IMG/VR virus record: IMGVR_UViG_3300020411_000475
Coordinates: 1-33,598 of that record
DNA length: 33,598 bases
DNA from: a virus
Direction: 5' to 3' (one strand)
Both the position numbers and the translations under genes were made by a program. Below, one piece after another: positions 2,056 to 27,249 of the stretch. The notes under the pieces were generated by a model. It saw only the letters and a program-made list of their open reading frames with translations, ran no database searches and was not told the DNA's origin. How positions within the stretch are numbered: the first letter of the stretch is position 1; each line of letters begins with the position of its first letter.

Positions 2056-2871
2056 TTAAAATGGAGCGTCATTAGGACCAATTTCGTCCATTGATTTCGC
2101 TTTAGGAACTTTCATTCCATTCATAGCTGCAGCATAATCTTTCCACATCTCAGGTGTATTCCAACCATCTACCCACCATGATTTAGAAAATACTTTCCCA
2201 TCAACGGTGTCACCTTTCGTACAATTACTTGCACCTGAACATCTAAAGTCAGGACTCTTAGCTGTTTTCTTATCCTTAGGACTTATGTAGTTAACTACTA
2301 ATCCACACATACATAGTAAGTCTGTGTTATTAACAGCTATCTCTCCAGTTTTTTCATGTGTAGATTTAGATGTATGGTCAAAGCCTGCCTCTTTTAATAC
2401 AGCTCTAACACCTTCAGCCTCAGATGAAGGAGAAGTGGAGGGAGGAGGCGTAGCCTTTTTCCCTTCCTCCTGAGCTATGTCCTTCTCCTTTTTTTGAGGG
2501 ATTGGTTTGCTTTGAGCCACTTCACTTTTACCTGTAGACTTAGACATTTCTTCTAATGAAGGTCTTTTCTTTCCGCTACCTTGGTACATCCAATTAGCTA
2601 ATGCTCTACCAATAGCAGAAGTTTCACAGTTTTCCATCCATGCATCTGCATTTGCAAATCCACCTTGACCTTTTGTTTCTTGTGCTATACCTGTTGATAC
2701 AGGATTTATATCTTCCATATCCTTATAAAGTAATGCTCTTACAATAACCATAGTTCCATCGTCACTTGTAGATACTACCTCTGTAAAGATACGACCATTT
2801 GGATTATCTTTCCAAAATTTTTTTAATCTATCTTCGACCATTTCATAGTCAGCAGGATTAAACTTTGCCAT
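2056..2871 (-). CDS. ERF-like single-strand annealing / ssDNA-binding protein
   Basis: 271 residues; an AAGGAGG site lies about eight bases before the ATG. Residues 1-105 carry the block DYEMVEDRLKKFW (8-20), GRIFTEVV (26-33) and ENCETSAIGRALANW (80-94) followed by KKRPSLEEM. The ENCETSAIGRALA signature is typical of ERF-type recombinases and related actinophage proteins that promote annealing of complementary DNA strands. Residues 115-155 form a low-complexity Lys/Glu/Pro/Ser linker. The C-terminal region (185-271) has Cys187, Cys189, Cys211 and Cys217 and several Trp, a plausible zinc ribbon. It is the last gene of the minus-strand block and ends at the shared hairpin. The family call is fairly firm; the zinc site is inference. 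Confidence 0.7.
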   Translation of the reverse strand: MAKFNPADYEMVEDRLKKFWKDNPNGRIFTEVVSTSDDGTMVIVRALLYKDMEDINPVSTGIAQETKGQGGFANADAWMENCETSAIGRALANWMYQGSGKKRPSLEEMSKSTGKSEVAQSKPIPQKKEKDIAQEEGKKATPPPSTSPSSEAEGVRAVLKEAGFDHTSKSTHEKTGEIAVNNTDLLCMCGLVVNYISPKDKKTAKSPDFRCSGASNCTKGDTVDGKVFSKSWWVDGWNTPEMWKDYAAAMNGMKVPKAKSMDEIGPNDAPF

Positions 2872-2900: not shown

Positions 2901-3041
2901 CTATTCTTCTTCTTGTTTTATGTTGCTAATATTTGTAACCCCTGTTCTTATAGGGACATACTCATATTTACCGTTTTGTTCTATTACTAGATGTGGTATT
3001 GAACCAACACCTGCAAACTCAACAGCTTTGACATTAGCCAT
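2901..3041 (-). CDS. 46-aa protein resembling the C-terminal half of a thioredoxin fold
   Basis: This short gene starts in an overlap with the stop of the metallophosphoesterase gene; two in-frame ATGs are adjacent (3044 and 3041) and a GGAGG just upstream favours the second. The product reads GVGSIPHLVIEQNGKY (11-26) then VPIRTGV, which recalls the cis-Pro strand and glycine turn of thioredoxins and glutaredoxins. The CxxC half is absent, so it is not a complete redox enzyme. It ends in QEEE. Translational coupling supports expression; the thioredoxin resemblance is weak inference. Confidence 0.5.
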   Translation of the reverse strand: MANVKAVEFAGVGSIPHLVIEQNGKYEYVPIRTGVTNISNIKQEEE

Positions 3042-4093
3042 CATTCCTCCAAGTCAACTAAGTACTCAGCAGTTACACCTTTGCTAGGTTTAACAAACAA
3101 AGTATATTGGGAAGGTCTTCCCATACTTGCTAGTTGTTCTTGTGCATAAGGATTGTGGCTTTCTGTACTACCATTGACCCAAACTCTTACATCATTAATG
3201 TATAAGTGTGTTGGTGTGTGGTAATGACCACAGACTGCATGAGTAAATTCTTCCATTAGTCCTGCAGAACCCAATGATTTCCAACCTAATATCTTTTTGT
3301 TGTAGCCATAGAAAGGAACACCCATAGTTCCTCTAATGTTATCTCCATGGAATAAAAGAAACTTAGCTTTGACACCTAAGTCAGCTACTGTATACCATGA
3401 TTTCTCAGGGACATGAAACTTAATTCGTTTCTCACCCTCGAACATAGTCTGTAGTATTTTTCCTAACATTCTATCTGCATTACTTTCAGGGTTATAGTCT
3501 CGTCTAGACCTCCCCCCTAATGCACCATGGTTTCCTATGACCCAATAACATTCTACTGTCTCAAACTCAGTTAACAACTTACTAAAGAAGTTATTTAATA
3601 TCCTTGGTCCATCAACAGTTACCTGTCTATATAATGAGCTATCTATCTCATGTGCTTGTCCAGGGAATATAAGCTCTCCTTCAATGATGTCACCGAGTGC
3701 AAAGACTACACATCTTTTTACGATATGATTAGCCTTTTGTATCCTAGCTATCTTGATAATTTTATCTGCATATCTGTCTATTCTTTCTTCTGCAACCTGT
3801 GTGTTATAGCTTGATGTATGCTTTGCTAACTGAACATCAGATAACAATGGTACACAGATTTCTTCTCCCTTCTTTGCAGTAGATATCTTAGGTCCTTTAA
3901 TGTTTGGTAATGTCAATGTAGACATTCCATCTTTTGCACCACGATATACAGCTTCAACTAAATCAGCTTTCTTATCTTTAAGACTATCTATTCTTTTCAA
4001 TAGTCTTTGATTAGTATCTTTTAGTTCTTTTATCTTTTCACTTTCAGCTTCAGCTAATAGCTCAGCTAAAGCCTTATCTTGTTTCTTGTTCAT
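3041..4093 (-). CDS. Calcineurin-like metallophosphoesterase
   Basis: 350 residues. Residues 1-48 are a charged helical or coiled-coil lead. The catalytic domain then shows the family's metal-binding blocks in order: SDVQLA (85-90, Asp86), GDIIEGE (134-140, Asp135), GNHG (187-190, Asn188/His189), HGD (249-251) and GHYH (289-292). These ligate two metal ions and hydrolyse phosphomono- or diesters; in phages such proteins may act as nucleases or phosphatases, but the substrate cannot be read here. Its start overlaps the preceding HTH gene by 20 bases, and its stop overlaps the 46-aa gene. The usual first-block DxH is a DxQ here, a mild departure from the consensus. Confidence 0.8.
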   Translation of the reverse strand: MNKKQDKALAELLAEAESEKIKELKDTNQRLLKRIDSLKDKKADLVEAVYRGAKDGMSTLTLPNIKGPKISTAKKGEEICVPLLSDVQLAKHTSSYNTQVAEERIDRYADKIIKIARIQKANHIVKRCVVFALGDIIEGELIFPGQAHEIDSSLYRQVTVDGPRILNNFFSKLLTEFETVECYWVIGNHGALGGRSRRDYNPESNADRMLGKILQTMFEGEKRIKFHVPEKSWYTVADLGVKAKFLLFHGDNIRGTMGVPFYGYNKKILGWKSLGSAGLMEEFTHAVCGHYHTPTHLYINDVRVWVNGSTESHNPYAQEQLASMGRPSQYTLFVKPSKGVTAEYLVDLEE

Positions 4094-4500: not shown

Positions 4501-6375
4501 TTACTTGCTTTGCTTTACAGAAGTTGCTAATTGCTTAGCTACTTTGTGAACTAATTCATAACTATTAATAGGTATAATATTATTCTTTACCATAAAGTTC
4601 ATAATCTCTAATCTTTTCTCAGCACTTAATTCTCTAGTGTTACCATTATCTTTATCAACACCAATGAATTGTAAATCAGATACAAGTATTCTAGGAAGAG
4701 GCTGTTTAGCTAACCACTTAACAGCATCAAAGTCTATATTGTTTTGACCATAATCCTTAAGTCTATCAATAGCTTTACTATCATACCTTCCTTTATCTGC
4801 AATTATTTCTATCATTCCATGATACATTTCACCATTGAATCTAATATCATTTTGAGAACTTCCATAGCCAACATAACCTGCAATGGTAGAAGCTGGAAGA
4901 AGTTTAATAATCTCTACAACTTCTTCTGTATACCAACCCATTGAACCACTAAAGTCTATCATCATTGAACCACCTGCAACAGTTCTTCTACTTGAAAATA
5001 CTTTTCTATCAAGTGCCATTCTGTGCATATTCTTTGGTACAACACCATAGTCAGAGTTTCTTTTTCTTAACTCTCTTATAGCTTGGTTAACTTTCTCCTT
5101 AGGTTTAAATGGTTTTATATCTGCATTACCATGTACACCATCAGACTCATAGTTAGTCCTATACAGAAATGTAGCATCATGATTAGCTTGTTTTTTAATC
5201 TCATCTTTAGTTTCTTTATCTAAAGATTCAGGTAACTTAATACCATCTTGAACAGCTTCTTTAGCTTTCTGTGCCATTTCCATAGGTGTAATTCTATTGC
5301 TAAACTTTTCATCATAGTACTTACCGTCCCAATCATTCAAGGTTAGTTTGTTATACACCTTTCTTACCATACCCTTATACTTCTTAGGATAGGTAGTCAT
5401 GTATCCATAGCCAGTTCTTTCTCTCTGTTTCCAAGAATATCTCATAGCTTTATAAGGAAACTTCCTCATATCTGATGGAAGTTGTTGAGCATTTCTGATA
5501 ACCATAGAAGTATGCCTACACATATTTTCAAAGAAATCTACTTCTTTTTGTATTAATTCCTTATCAAATGTTCCAATGATTTGATTTGATTTAACTTGAT
5601 TAAGTATCTCATCATTAATCTTTGACCAATCAACATCATTATCTACTAAAGCTAGTTTCCTAACTGCATTCAAATGTGCTACTCTATAATTTTTTGTATC
5701 ATAGTAATCAGTAACCATATCTGCATAAGCCTTTTGTACATAAGACTCGTTGACTAAAGGATAAGGTGAACTATATAACTTCTTATATGTTATATAGTTA
5801 AACATCTCCTTTGTCATACCTTCTTCATTCTTAATATTCTTAATTTCAAAGTCAGATATGTTCTCAACATAGCACTTCTCCTCAGCTTCCATAGGAGTAT
5901 ACTCAGGTAATGAAGCAAAGAACTTCACAATGCTTTTGATAATTCCTTTATCATACTCTAAGATTTCCTCACTAACATTACCCCACCAGTTATTACCAAC
6001 CATATTCTTAGTTGATGTATTAATCCTTGATGGATAGCAAAGTTTCTTATACATTAACTTGACCTGCCATACAGATGAAATTAATTGAGAAAGATAAATT
6101 ATATCTTCTGTACCAAGTATTAGCTTTTTGTATTTATCAAATCTGAAATACTTATTAGCTAACATGGTAAGGTTTATAGCTTTTCTTTCTTCTATACCAT
6201 CTAAGTAGGGGAGAGAGGGAACTTGTAATTCCCTCCCACCTCTATCATACGAGGAGGTTTTATTAAGTTTGTATTTCACAACCCTATTACCCCTCAAAGC
6301 TAAGTTAGGATATTGAATAGGTTTAGTAATTTCTTTGTTATCACTTCTAAACAAATCCATGTTACTCATCCTCAT
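4501..6375 (-). CDS. VWA-domain protein, partner of MoxR-like ATPase (CobT/ViaA-like architecture)
   Basis: 624 residues. Residues 1-440 are mostly helical and unfamiliar, with many Tyr, Lys and Trp. The C-terminal third is a von Willebrand A domain: the MIDAS DxSxS is seen as IDFSGSM with Asp474, Ser476 and Ser478. The strand ILVSDLQF places a later acidic residue at Asp567. The usual Thr-containing GGT loop appears as GQNNIDFD (543-550), so the MIDAS Thr seems to be replaced. Such C-terminal VWA proteins work with MoxR-family AAA+ ATPases (RavA-ViaA, CbbQ-CbbO, NorQ-NorD, CobS-CobT) to remodel or metallate a target protein. Here the ATPase gene is immediately upstream and overlaps it by 14 bases. 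Starts at 6375 and 6369 both have an upstream GAGG. The target is unknown; no CobN-like chelatase is in the window. Confidence 0.85.
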   Translation of the reverse strand: MRMSNMDLFRSDNKEITKPIQYPNLALRGNRVVKYKLNKTSSYDRGGRELQVPSLPYLDGIEERKAINLTMLANKYFRFDKYKKLILGTEDIIYLSQLISSVWQVKLMYKKLCYPSRINTSTKNMVGNNWWGNVSEEILEYDKGIIKSIVKFFASLPEYTPMEAEEKCYVENISDFEIKNIKNEEGMTKEMFNYITYKKLYSSPYPLVNESYVQKAYADMVTDYYDTKNYRVAHLNAVRKLALVDNDVDWSKINDEILNQVKSNQIIGTFDKELIQKEVDFFENMCRHTSMVIRNAQQLPSDMRKFPYKAMRYSWKQRERTGYGYMTTYPKKYKGMVRKVYNKLTLNDWDGKYYDEKFSNRITPMEMAQKAKEAVQDGIKLPESLDKETKDEIKKQANHDATFLYRTNYESDGVHGNADIKPFKPKEKVNQAIRELRKRNSDYGVVPKNMHRMALDRKVFSSRRTVAGGSMMIDFSGSMGWYTEEVVEIIKLLPASTIAGYVGYGSSQNDIRFNGEMYHGMIEIIADKGRYDSKAIDRLKDYGQNNIDFDAVKWLAKQPLPRILVSDLQFIGVDKDNGNTRELSAEKRLEIMNFMVKNNIIPINSYELVHKVAKQLATSVKQSK

Positions 6376-7093
6376 CCTCTTCCTCTATGCTATCACTTCT
6401 ATCATCTGAATCTTGTATAGCTAATGCTTCTACCAATGAATCAGCATCATCTTGAAATACAGCGAATGAAGCGTCATCTACATCTATACCATTATCCATA
6501 AGATTCGCAAAGTCTATCCATTTACGAACAGAGAATACATGGTTTTCTTCTGTGTAGTCGTTATATATTCCTCTAAGATTTGTAGGTAATTGTTTAATCG
6601 CATCAGGATTAACCTTATCCATATGAATCTTAACAGGGAATCTATCTGCTAATGCCTCTGATAAATCATCAGGCACACCATTCATAGTTGCTATAATCTG
6701 AAAACCTTCAGCAGGTCTAACAGTTTCTTTTTCTTTATTAGGTAAAGTAAACCTCGCAAACATAGGGTCATCTAATAGTGCATGAAGAAATGTCATCACA
6801 TCTACTCCTGCATTATCAATCTCATTGATAACCAATCTTGCACCCTGTTTCCAAGCCTTTATTCCTAAGCCATCATGCCACTCAAAAGCACCCTGTTCAT
6901 TAGGAACATAGTGTCCTAACAATTCAGTAGCAGTACTATCTTGTGTTAAGGTAGTTTGGAACATCTCTTGTCCCTCCTTTAATCCTTCTGTGGCTGCAAT
7001 ATAAGTTTTCCCTGTGCCAGGCGGACCGTATAGTAGTATCCTCCTTGAAACAGGAAGCACCTTTGTTAATACTTCCCAACATCTGTTGTTCAT
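6362..7093 (-). CDS. MoxR-family AAA+ ATPase (CobS-like)
   Basis: 243 residues from the ATG at 7093, chosen because AGGGAG lies eight bases upstream; a GTG at 7102 would add three residues. Numbering from the ATG: Walker A GPPGTGKT at 23-30, Walker B as LVINEID (Glu91, Asp93), sensor 1 IIATMNG (Asn138) and the arginine finger in ALADRF (Arg151). The LLGHYVP segment and an insert between Walker B and sensor 1 fit the MoxR/CobS branch. The C-terminus is extremely acidic (IEEEDEDE). It would hydrolyse ATP as a ring and act on a substrate recruited by the VWA protein encoded just downstream. Phage genes of this type are often labelled cobS, but nothing here shows a role in cobalamin synthesis. 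It begins one base after the stop of the 165-aa gene. Confidence 0.88.
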   Translation of the reverse strand: MNNRCWEVLTKVLPVSRRILLYGPPGTGKTYIAATEGLKEGQEMFQTTLTQDSTATELLGHYVPNEQGAFEWHDGLGIKAWKQGARLVINEIDNAGVDVMTFLHALLDDPMFARFTLPNKEKETVRPAEGFQIIATMNGVPDDLSEALADRFPVKIHMDKVNPDAIKQLPTNLRGIYNDYTEENHVFSVRKWIDFANLMDNGIDVDDASFAVFQDDADSLVEALAIQDSDDRSDSIEEEDEDE

Positions 7094-7094
7094 A

Positions 7095-7592
7095 TTAATC
7101 ACTCCCTTTCTCTAACTTGTTCATCTCTTCAATGAACTCTTGTGTTATGGTTTCTTTCTCTTGTTTCCACCAATCAGCCCACTCTTTTTGCTTTAAGTAT
7201 CTAATTGATGGTACTTCAGGTAGCAACTCAAAAGCTGTTGCTGGAATATCAACGATAAACCTTCGTTGAAGTTCTCTATCCTGAGACATAAGTCCTGTCC
7301 ATATAGTTCTATAATGTAGGTCAGTCCTTTCGCCTTGCTTGTGATAATGAGGAACTACCATTACTAGAAATAATGGGAATCTATCATCAATCACATCAGA
7401 CAACTCATCACTCTCTTCTCTTGAACGAAAGATAGCATCTAATAATTGCCTGTTATATCCATACCTTATGGATAAATTGTTAAGATATTTAAGTATATCT
7501 TTAGTTATTGCACAGCTTTTCTTTTTCATAGAAGCCTTAGCAATATCTTCTTCATGTCCTTCTATACCTGTGTACTCTCCAGTATCACTCAC
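7095..7592 (-). CDS. Unknown 165-aa protein of the MoxR-VWA operon
   Basis: It starts with a GTG in a GTGA overlap with the stop of the upstream gene; that gene's last codons (GAGGAGGAAGAG) supply the ribosome site. The protein appears soluble and alpha-rich, with no membrane segment, Cys motif or recognised catalytic block. Notable stretches are a Trp-rich WADWWKQEKE near residue 140 and a hydrophobic strand PLFLVMVVPHYHK around 73-85. Its tight coupling to the ATPase suggests that it is a subunit or adaptor of the MoxR-VWA machine, which is inference from context only. Confidence 0.7.
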   Translation of the reverse strand: MSDTGEYTGIEGHEEDIAKASMKKKSCAITKDILKYLNNLSIRYGYNRQLLDAIFRSREESDELSDVIDDRFPLFLVMVVPHYHKQGERTDLHYRTIWTGLMSQDRELQRRFIVDIPATAFELLPEVPSIRYLKQKEWADWWKQEKETITQEFIEEMNKLEKGSD

Positions 7593-8233
7593 TCTTCCTC
7601 CTCTACTTTCTTAACAGCTTCCTTTAAAAGGTCTGTTAGTTCGGATTCATCTAACTTAGCAGTAATCATTTCATCTAAGTCATCTCCCTCTCTGCGACCA
7701 ATAGCCGAAGCAACACTATGTATATCTCCAACCATAATCATTTGAGGTTGATTTTCAAATACGCCATCAATGAAATCGCCAACCATCTGCTTATCAAACA
7801 GTTGTTCTTCTAAGATATCAAAGAACTTTACTATTCCTCCAACTTGTCTATCAGTTAGTTCTAAGGTATCCTTCATAGCATTATGCCATTGTTTATAAGT
7901 ATCTGAATCTTTAAGTTCATCAGGTTCTTCAAACAAACTTCTAATATATCTAACCATAGATAGATTAGTGTTAACCATAGCTTGTGATTGAACTACCTTA
8001 ACAGTTTCCAATAGTGCATCAATTACACTATGTCCTTCTGTTGCAAACATCATTCCATCAACCATGTTTGAGCCATCTGATTTGCTGTCGCTTCTGTCGA
8101 AATCTCCCATCAACCTAACGCCAAACGCTGACTTCTTTTTCTCTGCACGATAACCTCTCTTATCTGCATAGCCTAACCTCTTAACTAATTCTCTAAGTCT
8201 CTTAGGGAAATAATCAAAAGTATATTCACTCAT
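7589..8233 (-). CDS. Unknown 214-aa protein of the MoxR-VWA operon
   Basis: The start is uncertain. The ATG at 8233 follows the upstream stop by four bases but has no close Shine-Dalgarno site; GTG codons at 8245 and 8254 lie nearer an AAAGG and would add 4 or 7 residues. The protein begins with a basic YFPKRLRELVKRLGY helix and continues as mixed helices (a TYKQWHNAMKDTLELTDRQV block in the middle). It ends in an acidic KKVEEEE tail encoded by the next gene's ribosome-binding site. No family is recognised. Overlaps on both sides place it in the same transcript as the AAA+ and VWA genes. Confidence 0.65.
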   Translation of the reverse strand: MSEYTFDYFPKRLRELVKRLGYADKRGYRAEKKKSAFGVRLMGDFDRSDSKSDGSNMVDGMMFATEGHSVIDALLETVKVVQSQAMVNTNLSMVRYIRSLFEEPDELKDSDTYKQWHNAMKDTLELTDRQVGGIVKFFDILEEQLFDKQMVGDFIDGVFENQPQMIMVGDIHSVASAIGRREGDDLDEMITAKLDESELTDLLKEAVKKVEEEE

Positions 8234-8237
8234 ATGT

Positions 8238-8453
8238 TCAGCCACAGCAATCACAACCTTTCTTAATAAGTTCTGTTACTAGGTCATCTTTCAATGCCCA
8301 CTTACCTAAATGAATTTCATGGTTTTCACATGAAACTAGAAATTCATTATCAATGGTTACAGATACTTTAAGATGTCCATTACCATTCGTTTCTTTAACG
8401 CATAACTTACACGCTAATACCTGAACGATATCACTATCTTTTATCTCAGCCAT
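8238..8453 (-). CDS. Small Cys-rich, probably zinc-binding protein
   Basis: 71 residues with a strong TAGGAGG site before the ATG. Cys pairs CKLC (15-18) and a C-terminal CDCC, plus a Cys-Glu-Asn-His in the middle, suggest one zinc site. The central VSVTIDNEFLVSCENHEIHLGKW looks like a small beta sheet. No named family. It is the first substantial gene before the coupled unknown-ATPase-VWA series and may be a structural adaptor or DNA/RNA contact; the role is not known. Confidence 0.6.
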   Translation of the reverse strand: MAEIKDSDIVQVLACKLCVKETNGNGHLKVSVTIDNEFLVSCENHEIHLGKWALKDDLVTELIKKGCDCCG

Positions 8454-8461
8454 TATTCCTC

Positions 8462-8578
8462 CTAAATTATTCCTTTAATTTTCCACCTAATATAAGTTCT
8501 TATTCTTACTCCATAACAGAACTTATCTAAGAGTGGTTGATAAATATTAAATACCCAAAAGCGTATTATATTATCCAT
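8462..8578 (-). CDS. 38-aa micro-ORF in coupled chain
   Basis: Its ATG at 8578 forms a taATG overlap with the preceding micro-ORF, and the strong GAGGAGGAGG site sits six bases upstream. The product is hydrophobic, aromatic and basic (MDNIIRFWVFNIYQPLLDKF then a YGVRIRTYIRWKIKG tail), compatible with a short membrane-associated peptide. The next gene's TTAGGAGG site starts at its stop codon. Signals at both ends make translation likely; function unknown. Confidence 0.6.
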   Translation of the reverse strand: MDNIIRFWVFNIYQPLLDKFCYGVRIRTYIRWKIKGII

Positions 8579-8658
8579 TATTCCTCCTCCTCACTAGACG
8601 ATATCCATGAGTTGTGAATACGATTACCTTCCTTATCAAAGGAATATCCACCACCCAT
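8578..8658 (-). CDS. 26-aa micro-ORF in coupled chain
   Basis: It starts in a taATG overlap with the stop of the 145-aa gene and ends in a taATG overlap with the 38-aa ORF. The product opens MGGGYSFDKEGNRIH and ends in an acidic SSSEEEE tail; those Glu codons are the ribosome site of the next gene. It could be a real peptide or only a coupling leader. Confidence 0.5.
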   Translation of the reverse strand: MGGGYSFDKEGNRIHNSWISSSEEEE

Positions 8659-9095
8659 TATTCTTCTTCGCTATTCAAATTGTTTTCCATGTTCTGTATA
8701 ACAAACATTTCTTTACTCTTGTCATATGCCTCTTTGAATCTTACCAATTCTTCATCTGATAAATCATCAGGAAGATTGAACATAGCAGGATTATTACGCA
8801 TGTGTTCCAGCATGTCTTCAAATGATGTTTCATTAGCCATTCGTTCTGCATAAGCAACGAACTCTTTATTGTCCATCATAAGTTGCATAATTTTTCCTGT
8901 TAGAGTTCTATCCTCAGAATGCATACACAAGACCATTACCATATCGCCAATAGTCTTTAGCTTAGTACTAAGCATATCTATCTCTTCCCCAAGGCTGACA
9001 GTATTAGCCAATACTCTTGCGAATAATTTAGCCATGTCTTTTGGATTATCCATATCCATGCTTAACAGTTCTTTTTCTGTTATTCTTTTACCCAT
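8658..9095 (-). CDS. Unknown 145-aa protein, first gene of the coupled operon
   Basis: The ATG at 9095 is preferred because AGGAGG lies nine bases upstream; the ATG at 9113 would place that site inside the coding sequence. The protein is helical and Met-rich, with a central KLKTIGDMVMVLCMHSEDR and a later DDLSDEELVRFKEAYDKSKE helix, and ends in NSEEE. No family recognised. It leads a chain of at least seven overlapping or abutting genes that ends with the VWA protein, so it may be the first component of that system. The inverted-repeat array lies immediately upstream. Confidence 0.65.
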   Translation of the reverse strand: MGKRITEKELLSMDMDNPKDMAKLFARVLANTVSLGEEIDMLSTKLKTIGDMVMVLCMHSEDRTLTGKIMQLMMDNKEFVAYAERMANETSFEDMLEHMRNNPAMFNLPDDLSDEELVRFKEAYDKSKEMFVIQNMENNLNSEEE

Positions 9096-9119
9096 ATCTT
9101 TATACCTCCTCATGAGTAT

Positions 9120-9491
9120 GCTATCCGAATAGATAGCTTACAGCACACACTAATCCATGAGACATTGCGTAACATTACGAACTACGGAGGTTACTACAAC
9201 ATCAGGGTAGTCAATGTTTTACTTATAGCCATAAGTGTATGTGCTGTAAGCTACCTACTTTCGGTCATTGGTGTGTTAACAGGGCTATTTGTATTAACCA
9301 ACTCCTAATCGTAGATAGCCTGATACCTACACGACTGAATCACATTTACACAAAAGGGAGAACATCAGTTCTACTGTATAGGTATCAAGCTACCTACACT
9401 ATTAGTAGTGGTACAATTACATTCACTTGCGTGAATATGGCACTACTAATAGCGTGGATACTAGCACTTGCGTGTCAGTAGTAGATAGCTT
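9120..9491. repeat. Array of alternating inverted repeats in a gene-free gap
   Basis: This 370-base stretch holds no convincing gene. Six short boxes alternate in orientation: GCTATC 9120, GATAGC 9132, GCTACC 9250, GATAGC 9314, GCTACC 9389, GATAGC 9484. Three larger stem-loops use them: (1) GATAGCTTACAGCAC at 9132-9146 pairs with GTGCTGTAAGCTACC at 9241-9255; (2) GATAGCCTGATACCTAC at 9314-9330 pairs with TAGGTATCAAGCTACC at 9379-9394; (3) AAGCTACCTAC at 9387-9397 pairs with GTAGATAGCTT at 9481-9491, with CTATTAGTAGTG (9399-9410) and CACTACTAATAG (9441-9452) nested inside. Small perfect hairpins sit within the loops: ACTTAT-AGCC-ATAAGT at 9221-9236 and ATTCAC-TTGC-GTGAAT at 9421-9436. The arm sequences differ but stay complementary, as in a selected structure. 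Confidence 0.8.
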
Positions 9492-10213: not shown

Positions 10214-10245
10214 AAAAAAAGGGAGTAGATTTCTCTACTCCCTTT
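10214..10245 (-). terminator. Rho-independent terminator of the 272-aa gene
   Basis: GGGAGTAGA (10221-10229) pairs perfectly with TCTACTCCC (10234-10242) around a four-base loop, extended by flanking A-T pairs. On the minus strand it is followed by seven T. It lies just beyond the stop at 10253. Confidence 0.92.
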
Positions 10246-17064: not shown

Positions 17065-20000
17065 ATGGCAGAATTAAGATGGTGGTGGCAACCACCATTC
17101 ATGGAAGATTATGAAAATCAAGCCCAAGATAATAGGATACAACAAGCTAAAGTTTTAACTAGCTATGTAGAATCAAATCCTCAGTTATCACAAAACTTAC
17201 AAGGTTTAATACAAGAACATTTCTATCTACCTAAAGATGTATTAGTTGGTGCATCTCTTATAGGATTAACTACAGAAAGTCCTGAGCTAGCACCATTAGT
17301 AGAGAGATGGTTAGATAATGAAAAGACTTGGTGGGATAAAACAAAAGCAGTAGCTAGAGGAGCTGTTAGAACTGCATTTGTAGGAATGGAATCTGCAGCA
17401 CAAGAGTTAGTTAAGAAACCTTTGTTAGCTACACAAAAATATTTAAATGATAAAAAACATGAAGATGGTATTGGATTTGCAGGTGCTATGTTGCAACTTT
17501 ATACAAATAGAGAAGCAATGAATGATTGGCAGAAGATTAAAAAACAAATGGGTCCCTCAGTTGGTAGAGAAGCTCTTAAAAAATTAGCAGCAGGAGAAAA
17601 AGTAAACTTAGGTGAAGGTTACTTTGGTAACTCAACACTAGCAGAAGATACAGATATATTTAAAGAAATGGTTGCTAGAGGTGGAGACCCTGAAGAAATT
17701 AGAGAAATTGTTCAATCATATTATGGTCAAGATATAACTAATGCAGCTAGAGAAAGAAATGAAGGTTTATCTTTTAAATCTAGAAATGGACAAGTTATTA
17801 AATTAACTCCTGCAGCACCGTTAGTTTCATCAGTAGTTGAACCTGGAACTCAAGCTTACAATATAATGTCAGGTATTGTTGATGGTGCCATAACACTATT
17901 TATGGACCCAGCAATATTACTTGGTGGATATTTAAATAAAGCTGGTAAGGCAGTAAGAAGTCTTGACCAATCTCTTGTTGTATCTAGAGCAGGAATTATT
18001 AATAACTCAGTAAGGAAAACAGTACATGTTCCTACTGCTACAGAGTATGTAACTAAAACAAAAGGAGGTCAAAAGATAGTTGACCAATTTGTTTTAACAG
18101 ATGACTATACAGGAATAAATAACTTATTAAGAGGACAAGGCGATGCAACATTACATGCTGCTTTAAAAAATTCTAAAAATAGAAATGAAGTTCAATCTCT
18201 ACTTATTGATGCTATAGAACAAAGACAAGTATTAAATAAACTAGACCCTAACTCTATGGTTATGAGAGGAAAGATTTCATCAACATTAGGTAGAGCTATT
18301 GGAGGAGAGTTTGGTGCAGCAGTAGGTTTGAAAGGTGCAATATCAAAAGGTATTAATGATACACAACTAGGTAGAATATTTGCTCAGTTTCCTGTACCAA
18401 AACTTTATGTAAATGATTTAAATCAATCATTTTTTGATTTAAGAGATTGGATGAAATTTGCAAAAGTAGATGATAGTATTGCAAATCCTGCATTAGATAA
18501 ATTATCAGAAATGGCAGCAAAACAAAAAGCTAAGATATTAAATCCTGATATAGAAGAACCAGTTAATGCTATAGAAAATATGAATGAAGTACTTGAAATA
18601 TGGAATCAAGTATTAACACATATAGGAGAAAAGTTTGCCAATGTAGGTTTACCTGAAGAATTAGTAAAAGGTGTTCGTAAATGGATGTCGTCCATTGACC
18701 AAACAAGAATGTATTTTGTTAATGAGTTAGGTGAACTTGAATGGTTTGTTGGTTCTAAATATGAAATTATACCTAAAGAGTTTAGAGAATTAATAGCAGA
18801 AGAGTTATCTCCTGAAGATACAAGAATGCTTACTGAAAGAATTGTTTCTAAATTTAGAAAGAATAAAGCAATTGATTCAGATGAAATAGATACTATCTTA
18901 CAAAAAATACAAGATGCAAGTAACAATATATTAGAACCTGAAGCTAGACAATTAGTTCAAAGAATACATAGTGGTTATTATGAGGGAGCTGAACGAGCAG
19001 TATTAGACATTGCAGAAGAATTAGGTGTCGGTACTACTGGTAGAGTTCCTTATGGTTATACAGGCAAGGTTAGTCCAATAGATTTAGATACAGCTAATTT
19101 TTCTAGACACCCTATGAATTTTAATATGTCACCAGCAGATAATATCTATGGTGTAGAAACTTCTACTATGAAATTAATTATGGAAGGTAAGAGAACATCT
19201 ACTACAAGAAGTGCTGGAGCATGGGCTACAGCTTTTGGAAAACAAGTAGGAGAAGAATTTTCATTACCTTTTACTGGTCAGAGATTAACATTCTTTGATA
19301 AAGCAGGTAACGAAGTACCTGTACAAATTACTAAAGTTAGAAAACTACCACAAGATTTATTTACTAATCCACAAAGAAGAGTATTGCTAGAAGATATTAT
19401 TTCTAAAGAAGGTTGGACTGAAGCTGCTTATCAAAGAATATTAAACGAAGCAGGAATGGGTAAGGGGTTTCCATTATGGCAAGTTGAATATAAACCATTA
19501 CAACTTCAAGGTAGATATGACCAAAACAAACAAAGAATGTTGCAACTTGGATTATCTGATAATTTAGATACTGATTTAGCAAAAGCAGAATATGATTGGG
19601 GAACTAAAGCAGATAGAATTAAAGTAGAACTTTCTGATGAAGTGAATCAATTACCTAAAAATATACAAGGCAAAGTTAAATTATCTATGACTCAGTTAGG
19701 AGAACTAGAGAAAAAAGGTTCAAACTTGAATGCTGCTAGACAAGCTTTAGTTACTCAAAAAGAAGGAATCCTAGCTAAGTATGAACCTACAGGTGCAAAT
19801 ATAGCTTGGGCTAAAAGAACTATAGCACAACAAAGAGGTGTTGAACCTAAGGCAGTAAGTAAAGATGAAGCTTTAAATTATCTTAATAGCAGAAAGTCAG
19901 ACGAATTAAACAACCCTGTAACTAAAGAAGCTTTTGAAACAAAAACAATTACAAGGGAAGCTTACATAGATGAAGTTACTGGAGATAAAGTAATTGATGA

Positions 20001-23000
20001 CATATCAGAAGAAATTACTAGAGGTAGAGGTAGAAAAACTGCAGTTACTTTAGATGAAGCTATAGAAAACTTAGATGAAAATATAGCAAGAATACAGCAA
20101 CAAGTAGAAGAACAAGTATTTTATTTAGAAAATAATGTTCCTAAATTTAAAGAATTAAACAAACTAAATGCTAATAAACCTAAATATGGAAATCTTGAAA
20201 AGGATTGGGGTGCAATAGAACCAGGAAGTTTTGATTACAGAACTGCTGCAGCAAATAACTTAGCTAACTCTGATGGTGCATTAGTTGTATTATCAGGTGC
20301 AGGAGCACCAGGTCAAGGACTTAAATCTAGTAAAAACTTTTTAGAGAATGGCAAATGGGATGATGTAGAAAAAATAGAATTAGAATATATAGATGATATG
20401 AAACCTAATGTTCTAAAAGCAAACCCTAATAAAATATATTTGTTTGGTGATAACTTAGAAAGAAGAGGAACAGGTGGTCAAGCAATTATTAGAAATGAGC
20501 CTAATGCATTTGGTATAGCTACTAAAAAATCACCTAGAAGAGATGATGCTGCTTTCTTTACTGATGCTGATTATGATGAAGCAATTAAAATAATTGATGA
20601 AGATATTCAAAAAGCTTTAAATGATGGTAGAACTATTGTAATACCTAAAGCAGGTTTAGGAACTGGTCGTGCTCAATTAGCTACTAGAGCACCAAAAATA
20701 AATGAATACTTGCAAAATAGATTAAGAAATTTATCTAAGTCTATTGATACACAAACAGATTTATCTCCTGGTTTATATCAAGGAAACATACCACATATAG
20801 TGGTAAATCCTAATAAAGTATATACACCTGATGAGATTAGAGAGATACAAACTTTTCTTAAAACAAATAAGATTAATGATTTAGGAGTTGTAGGTTCTAG
20901 TGATTTAACTCCAGTAGAAGCTACAAAACTTAAGACATTGTTAGATGATATAATATTTCAAACTGAATCTACAGATAATCTTAAAAATACTGTAGGTGGT
21001 TTAGCTAGAACATTAGATGAGTATTTAACTTCTACAGATGATTTAGGTGAATTAGCTATATCAGAAGGAGAAATAAGAACTCTATTAGATGAATTAGTAG
21101 ATGAACTTAAAAATACAAACATCTTAGAAAAGATAGAAACAAATCAAGTAAGTAAAGCTAGACCAACAGCTCATCTTATCTCTGAGTATTACAACGATGG
21201 ATTTATTCCTATGCCTGATGCAAGATTATTCTTAAGAGTATTTAGACCTTTAAGAGAATTAGGATTAAGACTAAGAGGTAAAGGTTCTTTACCAGCTGAA
21301 GATTTTGATAAATTACTAGCTAAACCTATAACAGATTTAGCAGAACTTGCATTAAAAGAAGATAAAACATTAACAGAGAGTGTAAGGCTTTGGGTTAAAA
21401 GTGCAAGAACAAGAATTAAAATGAATGTTGATGAAGATGGTATTAATCAAATATCAGAAGGACTATTAACTGCAGTAGCTGATGGATATATGCAGAGAAT
21501 ATGGAAACCTTCTGTTCTTATTAGACCAGCTTGGGTACTAAGAGTTGTTGGTGAAGAACAGCTTAGAATGTGGGCTGCAGACTTAGATAATGTATTTGCT
21601 CATCCATTATCAGCATTTGCTTGGATAATAGGTAGGAAACCACAAAGGTCTAGACAGTTCTTACAAAAAGAACGAGAGATGGTAAGAGATGATTATCTAG
21701 CAGATACTTTTAATTTAGGTAGAGGTGAAACAGATATCTTTGATGAATCTTTAGAATTAGCTGTTGAACATCAACAAGCATTAACACAATCTCACGCAGG
21801 TATATTATTTGGTTTAGACCCTAGAAGAGCTAGAGGATTTAAAGTAATTAATAAAGGTGAAAAAGGTTTTTATAATGCTTGGACTTCAGAGATACTGCAG
21901 TTACATTCTGATGAGTTAGCTTCTAGATTAGCAGCAGCTACTGTTGTAGGAGACCCAACATCTCCAGCTTTTGTAAACAGCGTAAATAAAATTAAAGAAG
22001 AATTTTGGTCAGGTGATTTATCTAAATGGAGAAAAGCATTAGTTGCTAATAGTGATGATGATGCTAAACAACTAAAAGCTTTAATTATGGAAGATAAGAA
22101 ATGGTCTGATAGTTATGTTGATTCAGTAGTAGCTAGAGTTCATCTTAAGACTGGAGGTAAATATAGAGCACATGAAGTATTACCTGATGGTAAGAAGATA
22201 CCTTTAGACTTAGAAACACCTAGACCTATGAATCCTAGTCATGTAATAGAATATCAAATTATAGAATCAGGAGACCATGAATTACTTAGACAAATAGGCA
22301 GAGGTCATTTAGATGAATCTGAACATGGTATACAAATATTTAATAGTAAATCTAAACAATACGAAGACATGATATTTAATAGAAAAATGTCAAGGTCAGA
22401 GTTTAGAAAATATTCTACTTGGTTAAATAAATATAAAACAGATGTTGTATCAGATAACTTTAAAGTAAAAGCATCTAGGTTTGAAGCTGATAGAGATTAT
22501 GCTGCTAAAGCAGACCAAGTTATAGAAACATTATATGCAGGTCTTATGGGTGTTTCTACTAATGAACTATCTAGGTCATCAGCATTTAGACAGTTCTACT
22601 GGAGATTTATAGAAGGTGCATATGCAAATATGGATGATGCTGCAAGAGCTAAGATATTAGCTAAAGCTAAAGATGTTATGGGTACAAGTTTACCTGGCTC
22701 TAAAGCTAAGAAATTTATTAAAAATTTAGAGACAATGGGTAAAGCAGATGTCACTAAAGCTATAACTGTAGATGACTTAAGAGCTATAGATGATTTAGCT
22801 AAGTCATATGCTTTACAAGAAACAAAAGGTCTGCTATATGATTTGAACAAAAGACATGTTATATCTGACCAACTAAGACTTATATTCCCATTCGCAGAAG
22901 TCTATATGGAAATTGCAGGAACATGGACTAAGTTATTAAAAACACAAAAAATGTTATTTGGTAGAAAGTTACAAAGAACAACAGAAGCATTTAGAAAACC

Positions 23001-24552
23001 TAGTGTATTTGGTACAGAAGAAGATGAAGGATTCTTTACTACAGACCCACAAACAGGTCAAGAAATGTATAACATGGCTGGTTTTGATTTAGGATTTAAT
23101 GTAGATAGAGCACTTAATAATCCTGATGAATCAGATATAGGTATTAACCCAATAACAGGAAGACCTGATATTGGCACTCCTAGAGTTAAAGCTAAAATGG
23201 TAGGATATGCAAGTGGATTAAATATGGTTGCAGGTTCTGTAGTTCCAGGATTAGGACCATTAGCACAACTTCCTGCTAGTGCAGTACTACCAACTAGCCA
23301 ATCTATTGATGAAGCATTCTTTCCTTATGGAAGACCTGAAGGGGAATGGTATGACCCTAGATTTTATGTTACATCTGCAATGCCTAATTGGTTTAAAAAG
23401 ATACTTGCTGCAGGTGGTTCAATAGATAAAGATTTAGAAAGACAATATTCAAATGAAGTTAAAACAGTACTTAGAGCTATGAATACTACAGGTATATTTG
23501 ATGATAGTTCTCCTGCAGCAGAACAAGAATCATTAGAAAGAGCTAGAAAATTAGCAAGTCATATGTTACTTATAAGAGGTATTGTTCAAGCTATAGCACC
23601 ATCAGGTCCAGTATTTAAATATGAATACCAAATAGGACCTGAAGGTAGTCACTTTCTAGACCCTACTAAAATAAAAGAAGAAGACCCTGATAATCATTAT
23701 TTTGCAGAAGTATTATTATCAGATGCTTATTATCAATTCTTAGCAGAGTTTGATGGAGACAGAGTACAAGCTACAGGTAAGTTTATTAAGATGTTTGGAT
23801 TTGACCCTACAGCTTTATTAACATCAAAGTCTAAAAAAATTAGAGCAACTACATACACAGTAGAAGGTGGATACTTCTATAAACAAAATAAAGAACTAAT
23901 GGATAAACATCCTGATATCGGATACTATATGTTTCCTGATTCTCCTTTAGATGAGTTTGATTTTCAAGCATGGGCAGATGCTTTTGCTTCAGGAGATAGA
24001 GTAGATTTAACAGATGTACAATATCAAAAAGCTATAAGACAAGCTCAAGGTTCATTAGCTTATGAAAACTATAGAAGAATGCTTATGGATGGACCTATGT
24101 TTTCAAGAGTTCCATTGGATAAGAAATTTGAAATGTTATATCTATTTAGATTACAAGTACAAAAACAATTCCCTGGATATGGTCAGACTTCTACAACTGC
24201 ACCTTCTTTAGATGTAAATTCAAAAATTGATTTATTAATTAATTTTATTGCTACTGAACAAAATACAGAAGTTACATTACCTGATGGAAGTATAACCACT
24301 GTATCTCAGTTACCTGCTATTAGAGGTACTATGCAGTATATAGCAACTAGACAATTCTTATTAGAAGGAATAAAGCAAAGATATGGAGCAAATGCTAGTA
24401 TAAGTAGAGCAGAAGCTAGTGAAGCTAGGAGAATACTTAGGAATACTGCAAGTCAGTTAATGTCCAAGTATCCTGATTTTTACTATGTTTATTATGACTT
24501 GTTTAGACTAGAAGCAGAGGAGATAAGTTACGGAATGGGATATGAAATATAA
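17065..24552 (+). CDS. Giant 2495-aa probable internal/ejected virion protein with ASCH-like and macro-like segments
   Basis: It begins MAELRWWWQPPF six bases after AGGAGG. The first ~700 residues are helical with a hydrophobic patch near 270-295. Residues about 695-815 contain the pattern GKRTSTTR (around 710) and end FPLWQVEYK, resembling an ASCH (PUA-like) domain. Residues about 1050-1085 (RTAAANNLANSDGALVVLSG) recall a SLOG-type nucleotide fold, weakly. Residues 1118-1215 match a macro-like phage domain: IYLFGDNLERRGTGGQAIIR, then GIATK and IPKAGLGTGRAQL. The remaining 1280 residues are helical with no recognised motif. Size and position between portal and capsid genes fit an internal core or ejected protein. 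An ADP-ribose-related role for the macro-like part is inference. Confidence 0.8.
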   Translation: MAELRWWWQPPFMEDYENQAQDNRIQQAKVLTSYVESNPQLSQNLQGLIQEHFYLPKDVLVGASLIGLTTESPELAPLVERWLDNEKTWWDKTKAVARGAVRTAFVGMESAAQELVKKPLLATQKYLNDKKHEDGIGFAGAMLQLYTNREAMNDWQKIKKQMGPSVGREALKKLAAGEKVNLGEGYFGNSTLAEDTDIFKEMVARGGDPEEIREIVQSYYGQDITNAARERNEGLSFKSRNGQVIKLTPAAPLVSSVVEPGTQAYNIMSGIVDGAITLFMDPAILLGGYLNKAGKAVRSLDQSLVVSRAGIINNSVRKTVHVPTATEYVTKTKGGQKIVDQFVLTDDYTGINNLLRGQGDATLHAALKNSKNRNEVQSLLIDAIEQRQVLNKLDPNSMVMRGKISSTLGRAIGGEFGAAVGLKGAISKGINDTQLGRIFAQFPVPKLYVNDLNQSFFDLRDWMKFAKVDDSIANPALDKLSEMAAKQKAKILNPDIEEPVNAIENMNEVLEIWNQVLTHIGEKFANVGLPEELVKGVRKWMSSIDQTRMYFVNELGELEWFVGSKYEIIPKEFRELIAEELSPEDTRMLTERIVSKFRKNKAIDSDEIDTILQKIQDASNNILEPEARQLVQRIHSGYYEGAERAVLDIAEELGVGTTGRVPYGYTGKVSPIDLDTANFSRHPMNFNMSPADNIYGVETSTMKLIMEGKRTSTTRSAGAWATAFGKQVGEEFSLPFTGQRLTFFDKAGNEVPVQITKVRKLPQDLFTNPQRRVLLEDIISKEGWTEAAYQRILNEAGMGKGFPLWQVEYKPLQLQGRYDQNKQRMLQLGLSDNLDTDLAKAEYDWGTKADRIKVELSDEVNQLPKNIQGKVKLSMTQLGELEKKGSNLNAARQALVTQKEGILAKYEPTGANIAWAKRTIAQQRGVEPKAVSKDEALNYLNSRKSDELNNPVTKEAFETKTITREAYIDEVTGDKVIDDISEEITRGRGRKTAVTLDEAIENLDENIARIQQQVEEQVFYLENNVPKFKELNKLNANKPKYGNLEKDWGAIEPGSFDYRTAAANNLANSDGALVVLSGAGAPGQGLKSSKNFLENGKWDDVEKIELEYIDDMKPNVLKANPNKIYLFGDNLERRGTGGQAIIRNEPNAFGIATKKSPRRDDAAFFTDADYDEAIKIIDEDIQKALNDGRTIVIPKAGLGTGRAQLATRAPKINEYLQNRLRNLSKSIDTQTDLSPGLYQGNIPHIVVNPNKVYTPDEIREIQTFLKTNKINDLGVVGSSDLTPVEATKLKTLLDDIIFQTESTDNLKNTVGGLARTLDEYLTSTDDLGELAISEGEIRTLLDELVDELKNTNILEKIETNQVSKARPTAHLISEYYNDGFIPMPDARLFLRVFRPLRELGLRLRGKGSLPAEDFDKLLAKPITDLAELALKEDKTLTESVRLWVKSARTRIKMNVDEDGINQISEGLLTAVADGYMQRIWKPSVLIRPAWVLRVVGEEQLRMWAADLDNVFAHPLSAFAWIIGRKPQRSRQFLQKEREMVRDDYLADTFNLGRGETDIFDESLELAVEHQQALTQSHAGILFGLDPRRARGFKVINKGEKGFYNAWTSEILQLHSDELASRLAAATVVGDPTSPAFVNSVNKIKEEFWSGDLSKWRKALVANSDDDAKQLKALIMEDKKWSDSYVDSVVARVHLKTGGKYRAHEVLPDGKKIPLDLETPRPMNPSHVIEYQIIESGDHELLRQIGRGHLDESEHGIQIFNSKSKQYEDMIFNRKMSRSEFRKYSTWLNKYKTDVVSDNFKVKASRFEADRDYAAKADQVIETLYAGLMGVSTNELSRSSAFRQFYWRFIEGAYANMDDAARAKILAKAKDVMGTSLPGSKAKKFIKNLETMGKADVTKAITVDDLRAIDDLAKSYALQETKGLLYDLNKRHVISDQLRLIFPFAEVYMEIAGTWTKLLKTQKMLFGRKLQRTTEAFRKPSVFGTEEDEGFFTTDPQTGQEMYNMAGFDLGFNVDRALNNPDESDIGINPITGRPDIGTPRVKAKMVGYASGLNMVAGSVVPGLGPLAQLPASAVLPTSQSIDEAFFPYGRPEGEWYDPRFYVTSAMPNWFKKILAAGGSIDKDLERQYSNEVKTVLRAMNTTGIFDDSSPAAEQESLERARKLASHMLLIRGIVQAIAPSGPVFKYEYQIGPEGSHFLDPTKIKEEDPDNHYFAEVLLSDAYYQFLAEFDGDRVQATGKFIKMFGFDPTALLTSKSKKIRATTYTVEGGYFYKQNKELMDKHPDIGYYMFPDSPLDEFDFQAWADAFASGDRVDLTDVQYQKAIRQAQGSLAYENYRRMLMDGPMFSRVPLDKKFEMLYLFRLQVQKQFPGYGQTSTTAPSLDVNSKIDLLINFIATEQNTEVTLPDGSITTVSQLPAIRGTMQYIATRQFLLEGIKQRYGANASISRAEASEARRILRNTASQLMSKYPDFYYVYYDLFRLEAEEISYGMGYEI

Positions 24553-26319: not shown

Positions 26320-27249
26320 TTGGAATATACTGTCGATGAGGTTATTGAAGCTTTAAGAGCTGAGGGTTTTAGTGATGAAGAATTTCTAAGATATGCTGTC
26401 CCTTTGTTGGGATATGAATCTAAATCTTTAGAAACTAATATTCCATTTACACAAGATGTTATAGATAAAGAGTCTCCTTCAGTAGGTATATTTCAAATTA
26501 ATGTAGATACTGCTGCACCACAGATATTCCAATATATGGCAAGAATTGGTGATGAAGGAGTATCTATACTACCAAGAGATTCAGAACATAAGAGAGCATT
26601 AGCTAAAGGAATACTTAGTGAAGAACAAGAAGGAAGATGGGATTTACTTAAAGTAGAAGGTGATGCTAAAGATTATGCTATTACATTTATACAAGGATTA
26701 GATTTAAAGCAACAAGCTGAATTGTTTAGAATGGTCTATGACCAAAAAGAAAAAGAACAAGAAGATAAATCTTTTAAGAATGTATTAAAAGAACTGTATC
26801 CATATACTACAGGTAGAATGTATGAATATAATGATGATGATGCTATAGCTTTTTTAAATAATATAATTAAAGATGTAGATAATTATTTAGCACAACCTCC
26901 TGTAGAAGTAGAAGAACCTACTACTACTCCTAATTATGCTGGTAGAAATTATGAGGAAGATGAAGGTAATACAGATTTACCAGTAGATACATTTAAATTT
27001 CTAGGAACAGAAATGATTCCACCTGAAGCAACTAAAGAAGTATGGGCAAAAGCATTACAAAGAATATATGGTGTTACTCCTCCTACTCCTATGTCTATTG
27101 AGAAAAGTAAATATTTAGAGAAATTAGAAAAGAAAAATGAAAGCAGACCGAGTATTTTTACTAACTTAAGAAACATGATAACTGAAAATATAGATGATGT
27201 TTTAGATAGACAAGAACAATTTAATAGGGAAGTATATGGCAGAAAATAA
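26320..27249 (+). CDS. Virion-associated lytic transglycosylase-like protein
   Basis: The TTG at 26320 lies one base after the previous stop, with GGAGG and AGGGGA just upstream; an in-frame GTG at 26224 would run through the preceding gene and has no ribosome site. From the TTG, 309 residues: Glu33 in LLGYESKS, then SPSVGIFQIN (52-61), the Glu...SxGxxQI pattern of soluble lytic transglycosylases, which cleave the glycan strand of peptidoglycan. A helical segment and an acidic Pro/Glu linker (about 205-235) follow. Such enzymes in the virion open a local hole in the wall during DNA entry, which agrees with ejected internal proteins around it. Confidence 0.72.
   Translation: MEYTVDEVIEALRAEGFSDEEFLRYAVPLLGYESKSLETNIPFTQDVIDKESPSVGIFQINVDTAAPQIFQYMARIGDEGVSILPRDSEHKRALAKGILSEEQEGRWDLLKVEGDAKDYAITFIQGLDLKQQAELFRMVYDQKEKEQEDKSFKNVLKELYPYTTGRMYEYNDDDAIAFLNNIIKDVDNYLAQPPVEVEEPTTTPNYAGRNYEEDEGNTDLPVDTFKFLGTEMIPPEATKEVWAKALQRIYGVTPPTPMSIEKSKYLEKLEKKNESRPSIFTNLRNMITENIDDVLDRQEQFNREVYGRK

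Follow-up and report, generated by a model that had tools for sequence, protein, structure and literature searches.

A diverged MoxR ATPase and VWA protein pair is a fixed core component of a group of uncultured tailed phages

The stretch of viral DNA analyzed here, a 33.6-kb fragment of IMG/VR virus record IMGVR_UViG_3300020411_000475 (34% G+C; hereafter the window), encodes on its minus strand a MoxR/AAA_5-type AAA+ ATPase followed directly by a protein with a C-terminal von Willebrand factor A (VWA) domain. An earlier note, made from the letters alone, had proposed that the two genes form a MoxR–VWA remodelling pair, and its open reading frames (ORFs), strand, coordinates, junction types, and AAA+ motifs were all as it described them. 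We found two adjacent, co-conserved genes under selection, with conserved AAA+ residues and conserved residues of the metal ion-dependent adhesion site (MIDAS) type, and the proposal of a remodelling pair is supported. Weighing the evidence below, we lean toward the view that the pair is a dedicated MoxR/VWA remodelling machine, made early and outside the virion module, that acts on a host protein or an early phage protein.

The ATPase matched the Pfam family AAA_5 (5.2e-20) and, above its cut-off, the MoxR model bpMoxR (2e-7). A 32-row profile of the family, compared with the Protein Data Bank (PDB), was closest to Midasin, NorQ, CbbQ, and CobS, with Midasin the best match (E-values for NorQ and CobS were 3e-15 and 1.5e-8), and distant similarity to the phage CobS family phrog_249 was detected at 1e-25. 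The Walker A lysine (K32), the catalytic glutamate (E94), the sensor-1 asparagine (N141), and two arginines (R154 and R193) were invariant in 32 of 32 aligned relatives. By profile match and motifs the protein belongs to the MoxR/AAA_5 ATPases, having Walker A, the catalytic Glu, sensor 1, the Arg finger, and sensor 2. The phage ATPase family does lack the canonical Walker B aspartate (DE): the position is Asn (LVINEID) in all 32 aligned relatives and in 129 of 130 parsed family sequences, and most of the outside relatives that we aligned have Asp there. The earlier note had listed the NEID motif and left this substitution, which is family-wide, unremarked. A tree of the ATPases set the family apart with support of 91/97; its outside branches are long, and we do not rely on it. 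Searching cellular genome contigs with the ATPase profile returned only distant ATPases (24–32% identity over long matches) and identified no host. Actinobacterial genomes (L157–L163) have AAA+ genes followed directly by genes of ~530–605 amino acids (aa), two of which encode DxSGS; such gene pairs are cousins, cellular or prophage, of those in the phages.

The partner protein is laid out as a helical N-terminal region (residues ~60–405), flexible stretches, and a C-terminal VWA domain (~468–624). Its MIDAS-type residues, D474-x-S476-x-S478, N545, D548, and D567 (DxSGS...N..D...SD), were invariant in 162 of 162 VWA sequences, and the C-terminal domain alternates strand and helix in an AlphaFold model (mean predicted local distance difference test score, pLDDT, 80), in agreement with the VWA domain that the earlier note had placed in this gene. 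That note had also taken the loss of the MIDAS Thr as a possible specialization of this phage; the Thr is indeed replaced, but by an Asn that is found in all 162 family sequences. This Asn could still serve as a ligand. The 14-base overlap reported between the two genes holds if the VWA gene is read from its first ATG, but the family-conserved N terminus (M-D-L-F) starts at 6360, 1 nucleotide (nt) past the ATPase stop.

Pfam recognized a VWA domain in 0 of 40 family members, and the sole match of the protein in the PHROG library was phrog_33218, a family of unknown function (1.4e-5). The VWA profile gave a chance match only against the sequences of solved structures, and in a profile comparison with CobT-like VWAs the DxSGSM segment alone aligned. 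Fold searches, a check that had been suggested from the start, gave weak matches for the VWA protein and none in the PDB for the 165-aa protein encoded next to the ATPase (g165; model pLDDT 86.5). For the VWA protein, the top PDB matches were TFIIH subunit chains (E 0.2–0.8), which we take to be the Ssl1/p44 subunit, a protein with a VWA fold; the best match in BFVD was an unnamed viral protein (6e-6), and a haloarchaeal-virus VWFA protein also appeared (0.02). We consider the VWA assignment well founded on motifs, as distinct from family models.

Viral contigs were scanned with profiles of the ATPase, the VWA protein, and the Mre11-like nuclease encoded nearby, yielding ~146 non-identical contig groups in two subgroups, A and B, of 73 groups each (a few contigs were counted in both). 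The loci were found through these same genes, and the adjacency counts hold for this lineage only. In 113/114 testable groups (58/58 in subgroup A, 55/56 in subgroup B) the VWA gene comes directly after the ATPase gene, and same-strand junctions mostly overlap by 1–44 nt. In the exception, L208 (1964–4384), the two are separated by a 77-aa gene, an arrangement seen in no other relative. The nuclease gene has the pair upstream in 54/54 testable groups of each subgroup, at a distance within ~3 kb in 108/108. As a check outside the lineage, we examined the flanks of 80 other-phage loci that encode a nuclease of the same family, and these contained neither an ATPase nor a VWA protein belonging to the present family. 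Streptomyces phage Dagobah (L180, 11920–12981), which has its own primase/polymerase, encodes such a nuclease too (44% identity) but lacks the pair. One relative, G009, has a wrap-around overlap (96.5% over 10.9 kb), used for the length estimate only, that implies a genome of ~41.2 kb (41183 bases). We conclude that the pair is a fixed core component of a large group of never-cultured tailed phages of ~41–44 kb.

Selection was measured as the ratio of nonsynonymous to synonymous change (omega), pooled from 26 independent close pairs per subgroup (26 + 26). The values for the two subgroups were 0.06/0.07 for the nuclease, 0.15/0.11 for the ATPase, 0.34/0.25 for the VWA C-terminal domain, and 0.49/0.39 for the VWA N-terminal domain. 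Both genes of the pair are under purifying selection, and the pair is functional; the VWA N-terminal domain changes fastest of the parts compared, as expected for a target-facing part. For one close pair, the window and L001, the N-terminal domain had a dN of 0.042 against a dS of 0.015, and omega exceeded 2 both there and in g221, a protein encoded farther upstream. We do not claim positive selection, because synonymous changes between these two are few and the pooled omega of the domain is below 0.5.

Pairs of this general kind have been described before in phages, as MoxR–VWA or cobST genes (PMC8651126, PMC7824862, PMC7911831, PMC4124505, PMC2147016, PMC11288001). The cobST pairs occur in tailed viruses whose hosts span eight orders, cyanophage cobT has been mis-annotated as a peptidase, and viral CobST has been proposed to hijack host CobN for cobalamin (PMC8651126). 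Roseophages of the CRP-810 type and halovirus Hardycor1 carry MoxR–VWA pairs as well. The viral pairs of cyanophages, haloarchaeal tailed viruses, Hardycor1, and group 2.2 jumbo phages are like the present one in being adjacent or nearly so and often among early genes, as in P-SSM4, an unrelated phage whose gene order is gp46-cobT-pcyA-cobS-gp45. When we checked the P-SSM4 "peptidase" CobT, HExxH was present and the MIDAS canonical. In contrast, in the present family no HExxH was seen, the VWA is invisible to Pfam, Asn stands at both the Walker B Asp and the MIDAS Thr positions, and the 246-aa ATPase has no N-terminal extension, the ATPases being ~25–37% identical. NorQ–NorD, CbbQ–CbbO, and RavA–ViaA share the plan of a small MoxR ATPase with an adaptor that has a helical N terminus and a C-terminal VWA; the present pair differs in having no recognized metalloenzyme target gene nearby, and its VWA sequence is recognizably related at the MIDAS motifs only. 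The bicaudavirus ATV likewise encodes a MoxR ATPase (p618) with a VWA partner (p892), but it is an archaeal spindle virus and its protein a virion component, whereas the present pair belongs to a tailed phage and lies outside the structural module. Midasin (Mdn1/Rea1) has AAA_5 modules that work with a MIDAS domain, although within one giant multi-AAA chain for ribosome assembly rather than two short proteins. Anti-phage models in PADLOC gave only weak P-loop matches for the ATPase (IetA, 4e-6 over 29 residues) and none for the VWA protein, which does not place the pair in a known defence system with MoxR–VWA, and we found nothing usable in the literature on the expression timing or virion presence of phage cobS. 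The present family is a strongly diverged new branch of viral MoxR–VWA pairs that are already on record; what holds of the earlier claim of an undescribed phage complex is that this family is undescribed in the literature we searched.

By analogy with NorQD, RavA–ViaA, and CbbQO, the ATPase would assemble into a hexamer with the VWA domain docked on its pore, and ATP hydrolysis would move the VWA protein; in NorQD, the pore of the hexamer holds a VWA finger, and the target is bound by the MIDAS face (PMC9976466, PMC13036017). The helical N-terminal domain and the MIDAS face would grip a protein target for the machine to pull apart, activate, or inactivate. Since no polymerase, primase, or helicase of the phage's own is recognizable, the most likely target would be an early phage protein or a complex of the host (one for replication, transcription, or defence), rather than a metal chelatase or part of the capsid. 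Among the ORFs listed for relatives are packaging, portal, capsid, tail, and lysis genes and giant structural-region proteins, and no ORF seen in their small non-structural region is larger than the VWA gene. No polymerase-, primase-, or helicase-sized ORF was seen in that region, as judged by size and reading rather than by scanning each ORF against families, and for this reason the phage probably relies on the host replisome. The pair shares its strand with the nuclease and annealing genes, opposite to the packaging and structural genes, and we favour an early role over virion assembly because the pair sits outside the virion module and opposite to the structural genes. Some points weigh against our reading. 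With Asn at Walker B, ATP use may be slow or altered; the VWA identity is drawn from motifs and a moderate model, with weak PDB fold matches; the absence of replication genes was judged in the way just described; and the experimentally studied viral pair, ATV p618/p892, has been linked to virion tail development (PMC4124505).

The last of these points leads to the main rival, a virion-assembly chaperone that matures a capsid, portal, or tail protein. ATV p618 is a virion component that binds p892 (PMC4124505), Iyer et al. proposed such a role for the group 2.2 jumbo-phage MoxR–vWA (PMC7824862), and the structural region of the present phages encodes very large proteins (2317–2495 aa) that may need remodelling. 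We nonetheless think this role rather unlikely given that the pair lies next to the nuclease and annealing genes, on the strand opposite to the structural genes, and within a unit of its own, which terminators close in the window's subclade. Those same neighbours raise the alternative that the pair loads, removes, or activates the Mre11-like nuclease and the Rad52-like annealing protein. The proximity of the nuclease in every testable group of both subgroups, and the cyanophage pair that likewise flanks gp46, speak for such a recombination partner, but lineage-wide synteny does not single out the nuclease neighbour. The idea of a nuclease accessory is further weakened by the 80 other-phage loci and Dagobah, which have the nuclease without a pair of this family, and we hold it to be improbable.

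A cobaltochelatase helper, in which CobS and CobT would hijack host CobN to make cobalamin, could draw on the distant similarity of the ATPase to CobS in both PHROG and the PDB and on the role proposed for viral CobST (PMC8651126). However, the window ATPase has no match to TIGR01650, the CobS equivalog model, for which the relative L010 scored 12.9 bits against a cut-off of 558.55 (the P-SSM4 protein scores 66.9 bits), and the VWA protein matches no CobT model, having only DxSGSM in common with CobT-like VWAs. No CobN was found among the scanned proteins of the window fragment, where no targeted CobN search was run, and neither CobN nor a cobalamin-dependent enzyme was recognized on reading the relatives' ORF lists. 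These results disfavour the standard cobaltochelatase that the earlier note had named as an alternative and leave the helper role with very little probability. Finally, the substitution of both the Walker B Asp and the MIDAS Thr might mark the pair as a decaying relic without activity. The substitutions are family-wide, the other catalytic residues are kept, and omega is far below 1, and we give this explanation almost no credence.

The gene order on the minus strand is 145, 26, 38, 71, 221, 165, 246 (ATPase), and 624 aa (VWA), ending at the double terminator that had been predicted and that we confirmed (Table 1); tandem terminators are also present in L001, L014–L017, L095, and L098. In subgroup A, g165 adjoins the ATPase in 47/55 testable groups and g221 is present in 38/45; neither occurs in subgroup B. 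We therefore rejected the proposal that the whole chain is one conserved block: the pair stands without g165 and g221 in half of the family, an arrangement that the earlier note itself had named as evidence against it. The upstream genes, g165 and g221 included, are lineage-specific and lie outside the functional unit. On the other side of the pair, the gene for a helix-turn-helix (HTH)-like protein adjoins the nuclease gene in 64/64 and 68/68 testable groups of subgroups A and B, a 47-aa gene lies between the nuclease and Rad52-like genes, and 7 of 25 relatives of the Rad52-like candidate match Pfam Rad52_Rad22 (best 7e-5).

Table 1. Features of the pair and its surroundings in the window
Feature	Coordinates	Strand	Remarks
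Rad52-like single-strand annealing candidate, 271 aa, C-terminal Cys cluster	2056..2871	minus	phrog_11717 4e-27; conserved neighbour
Mre11/SbcD-like calcineurin-fold phosphoesterase (nuclease)	3041..4093	minus	phrog_284 1.1e-39; conserved neighbour
HTH-like protein, 91 aa	4074..4349	minus	conserved neighbour in both subgroups
Two tandem intrinsic terminators	4491-4461 and 4439-4416	minus	perfect; both within a 30-bp direct duplication
VWA adaptor protein, 624 aa	4501..6375	minus	MIDAS-type motifs, AlphaFold model; conserved start probably 6360
MoxR/AAA_5-type AAA+ ATPase, 246 aa	6362..7102	minus	GTG start; ATG at 7093 also possible
g165, 165 aa, function unknown	7095..7592	minus	8-nt overlap with ATPase start
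g221, 221 aa (214 from ATG), fast-evolving, function unknown	7589..8254	minus	4-nt overlap with g165
Small protein with Cys pairs, 71 aa	8238..8453	minus	28/45 testable groups, subgroup A
Microprotein ORF, 38 aa	8462..8578	minus	TAATG-type junction
Microprotein ORF, 26 aa	8578..8658	minus	TAATG-type junction; also in L001
First protein in chain, 145 aa	8658..9095	minus	AGGAGG precedes; only 9/45 testable groups

Several other features of the window were observed. Many proteins encoded at 8658–9113, 8578–8658, 7589–8254, and 2901–3044, and by neighbouring genes, end in EEE, and the last codons (GAGGAGGAA) of several of these genes resemble the Shine-Dalgarno site of the next gene; last codons that double as Shine-Dalgarno sites would account for the acidic tails as well as for the TAATG junctions. 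Upstream of the chain, ~380 bp of non-coding sequence (9114–9490) with inverted repeats (9130–9150/9237–9257 and 9391–9410/9441–9460) is a possible promoter or regulatory region, and between a 283-aa gene and the gene chain the minus strand has a perfect hairpin of 12 bp with a T-run (10218–10245), a probable terminator. A giant 2495-aa ORF (17065–24552) has a DUF7831 domain (Pfam 4.9e-36), its counterparts in relatives being 2317 aa or partial giants, and its product is probably an internal or injected virion protein. An 846-aa protein (27236–29776) has no Pfam match; to the eye, part of it (VILYRSTDDPNRII...GLGQHNYFATNP) looks similar to ADP-ribosyltransferase-like domains.

Beyond the remodelling machine that we favour, we offer a broader suggestion tentatively, and as one that we doubt: polymerase-less tailed phages may use a MoxR/VWA machine with modified Walker B and MIDAS sites as their main tool of host takeover, in which the fast-evolving N-terminal domain of the VWA adaptor would select a complex of the host, such as its replisome or one for defence, and the motor would dismantle or re-purpose it. 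Viral MoxR–VWA pairs are widespread and are usually filed as the cobalamin genes cobS and cobT. Here, the pair sits at the core of a small genome without recognized cobalamin, replication, or metabolic genes, and a role in cobalamin synthesis is therefore very unlikely. This makes the general question of what phage MoxR–VWA pairs do easier to test, and the compact 246-aa motor and two family-wide active-site substitutions provide handles for biochemistry.

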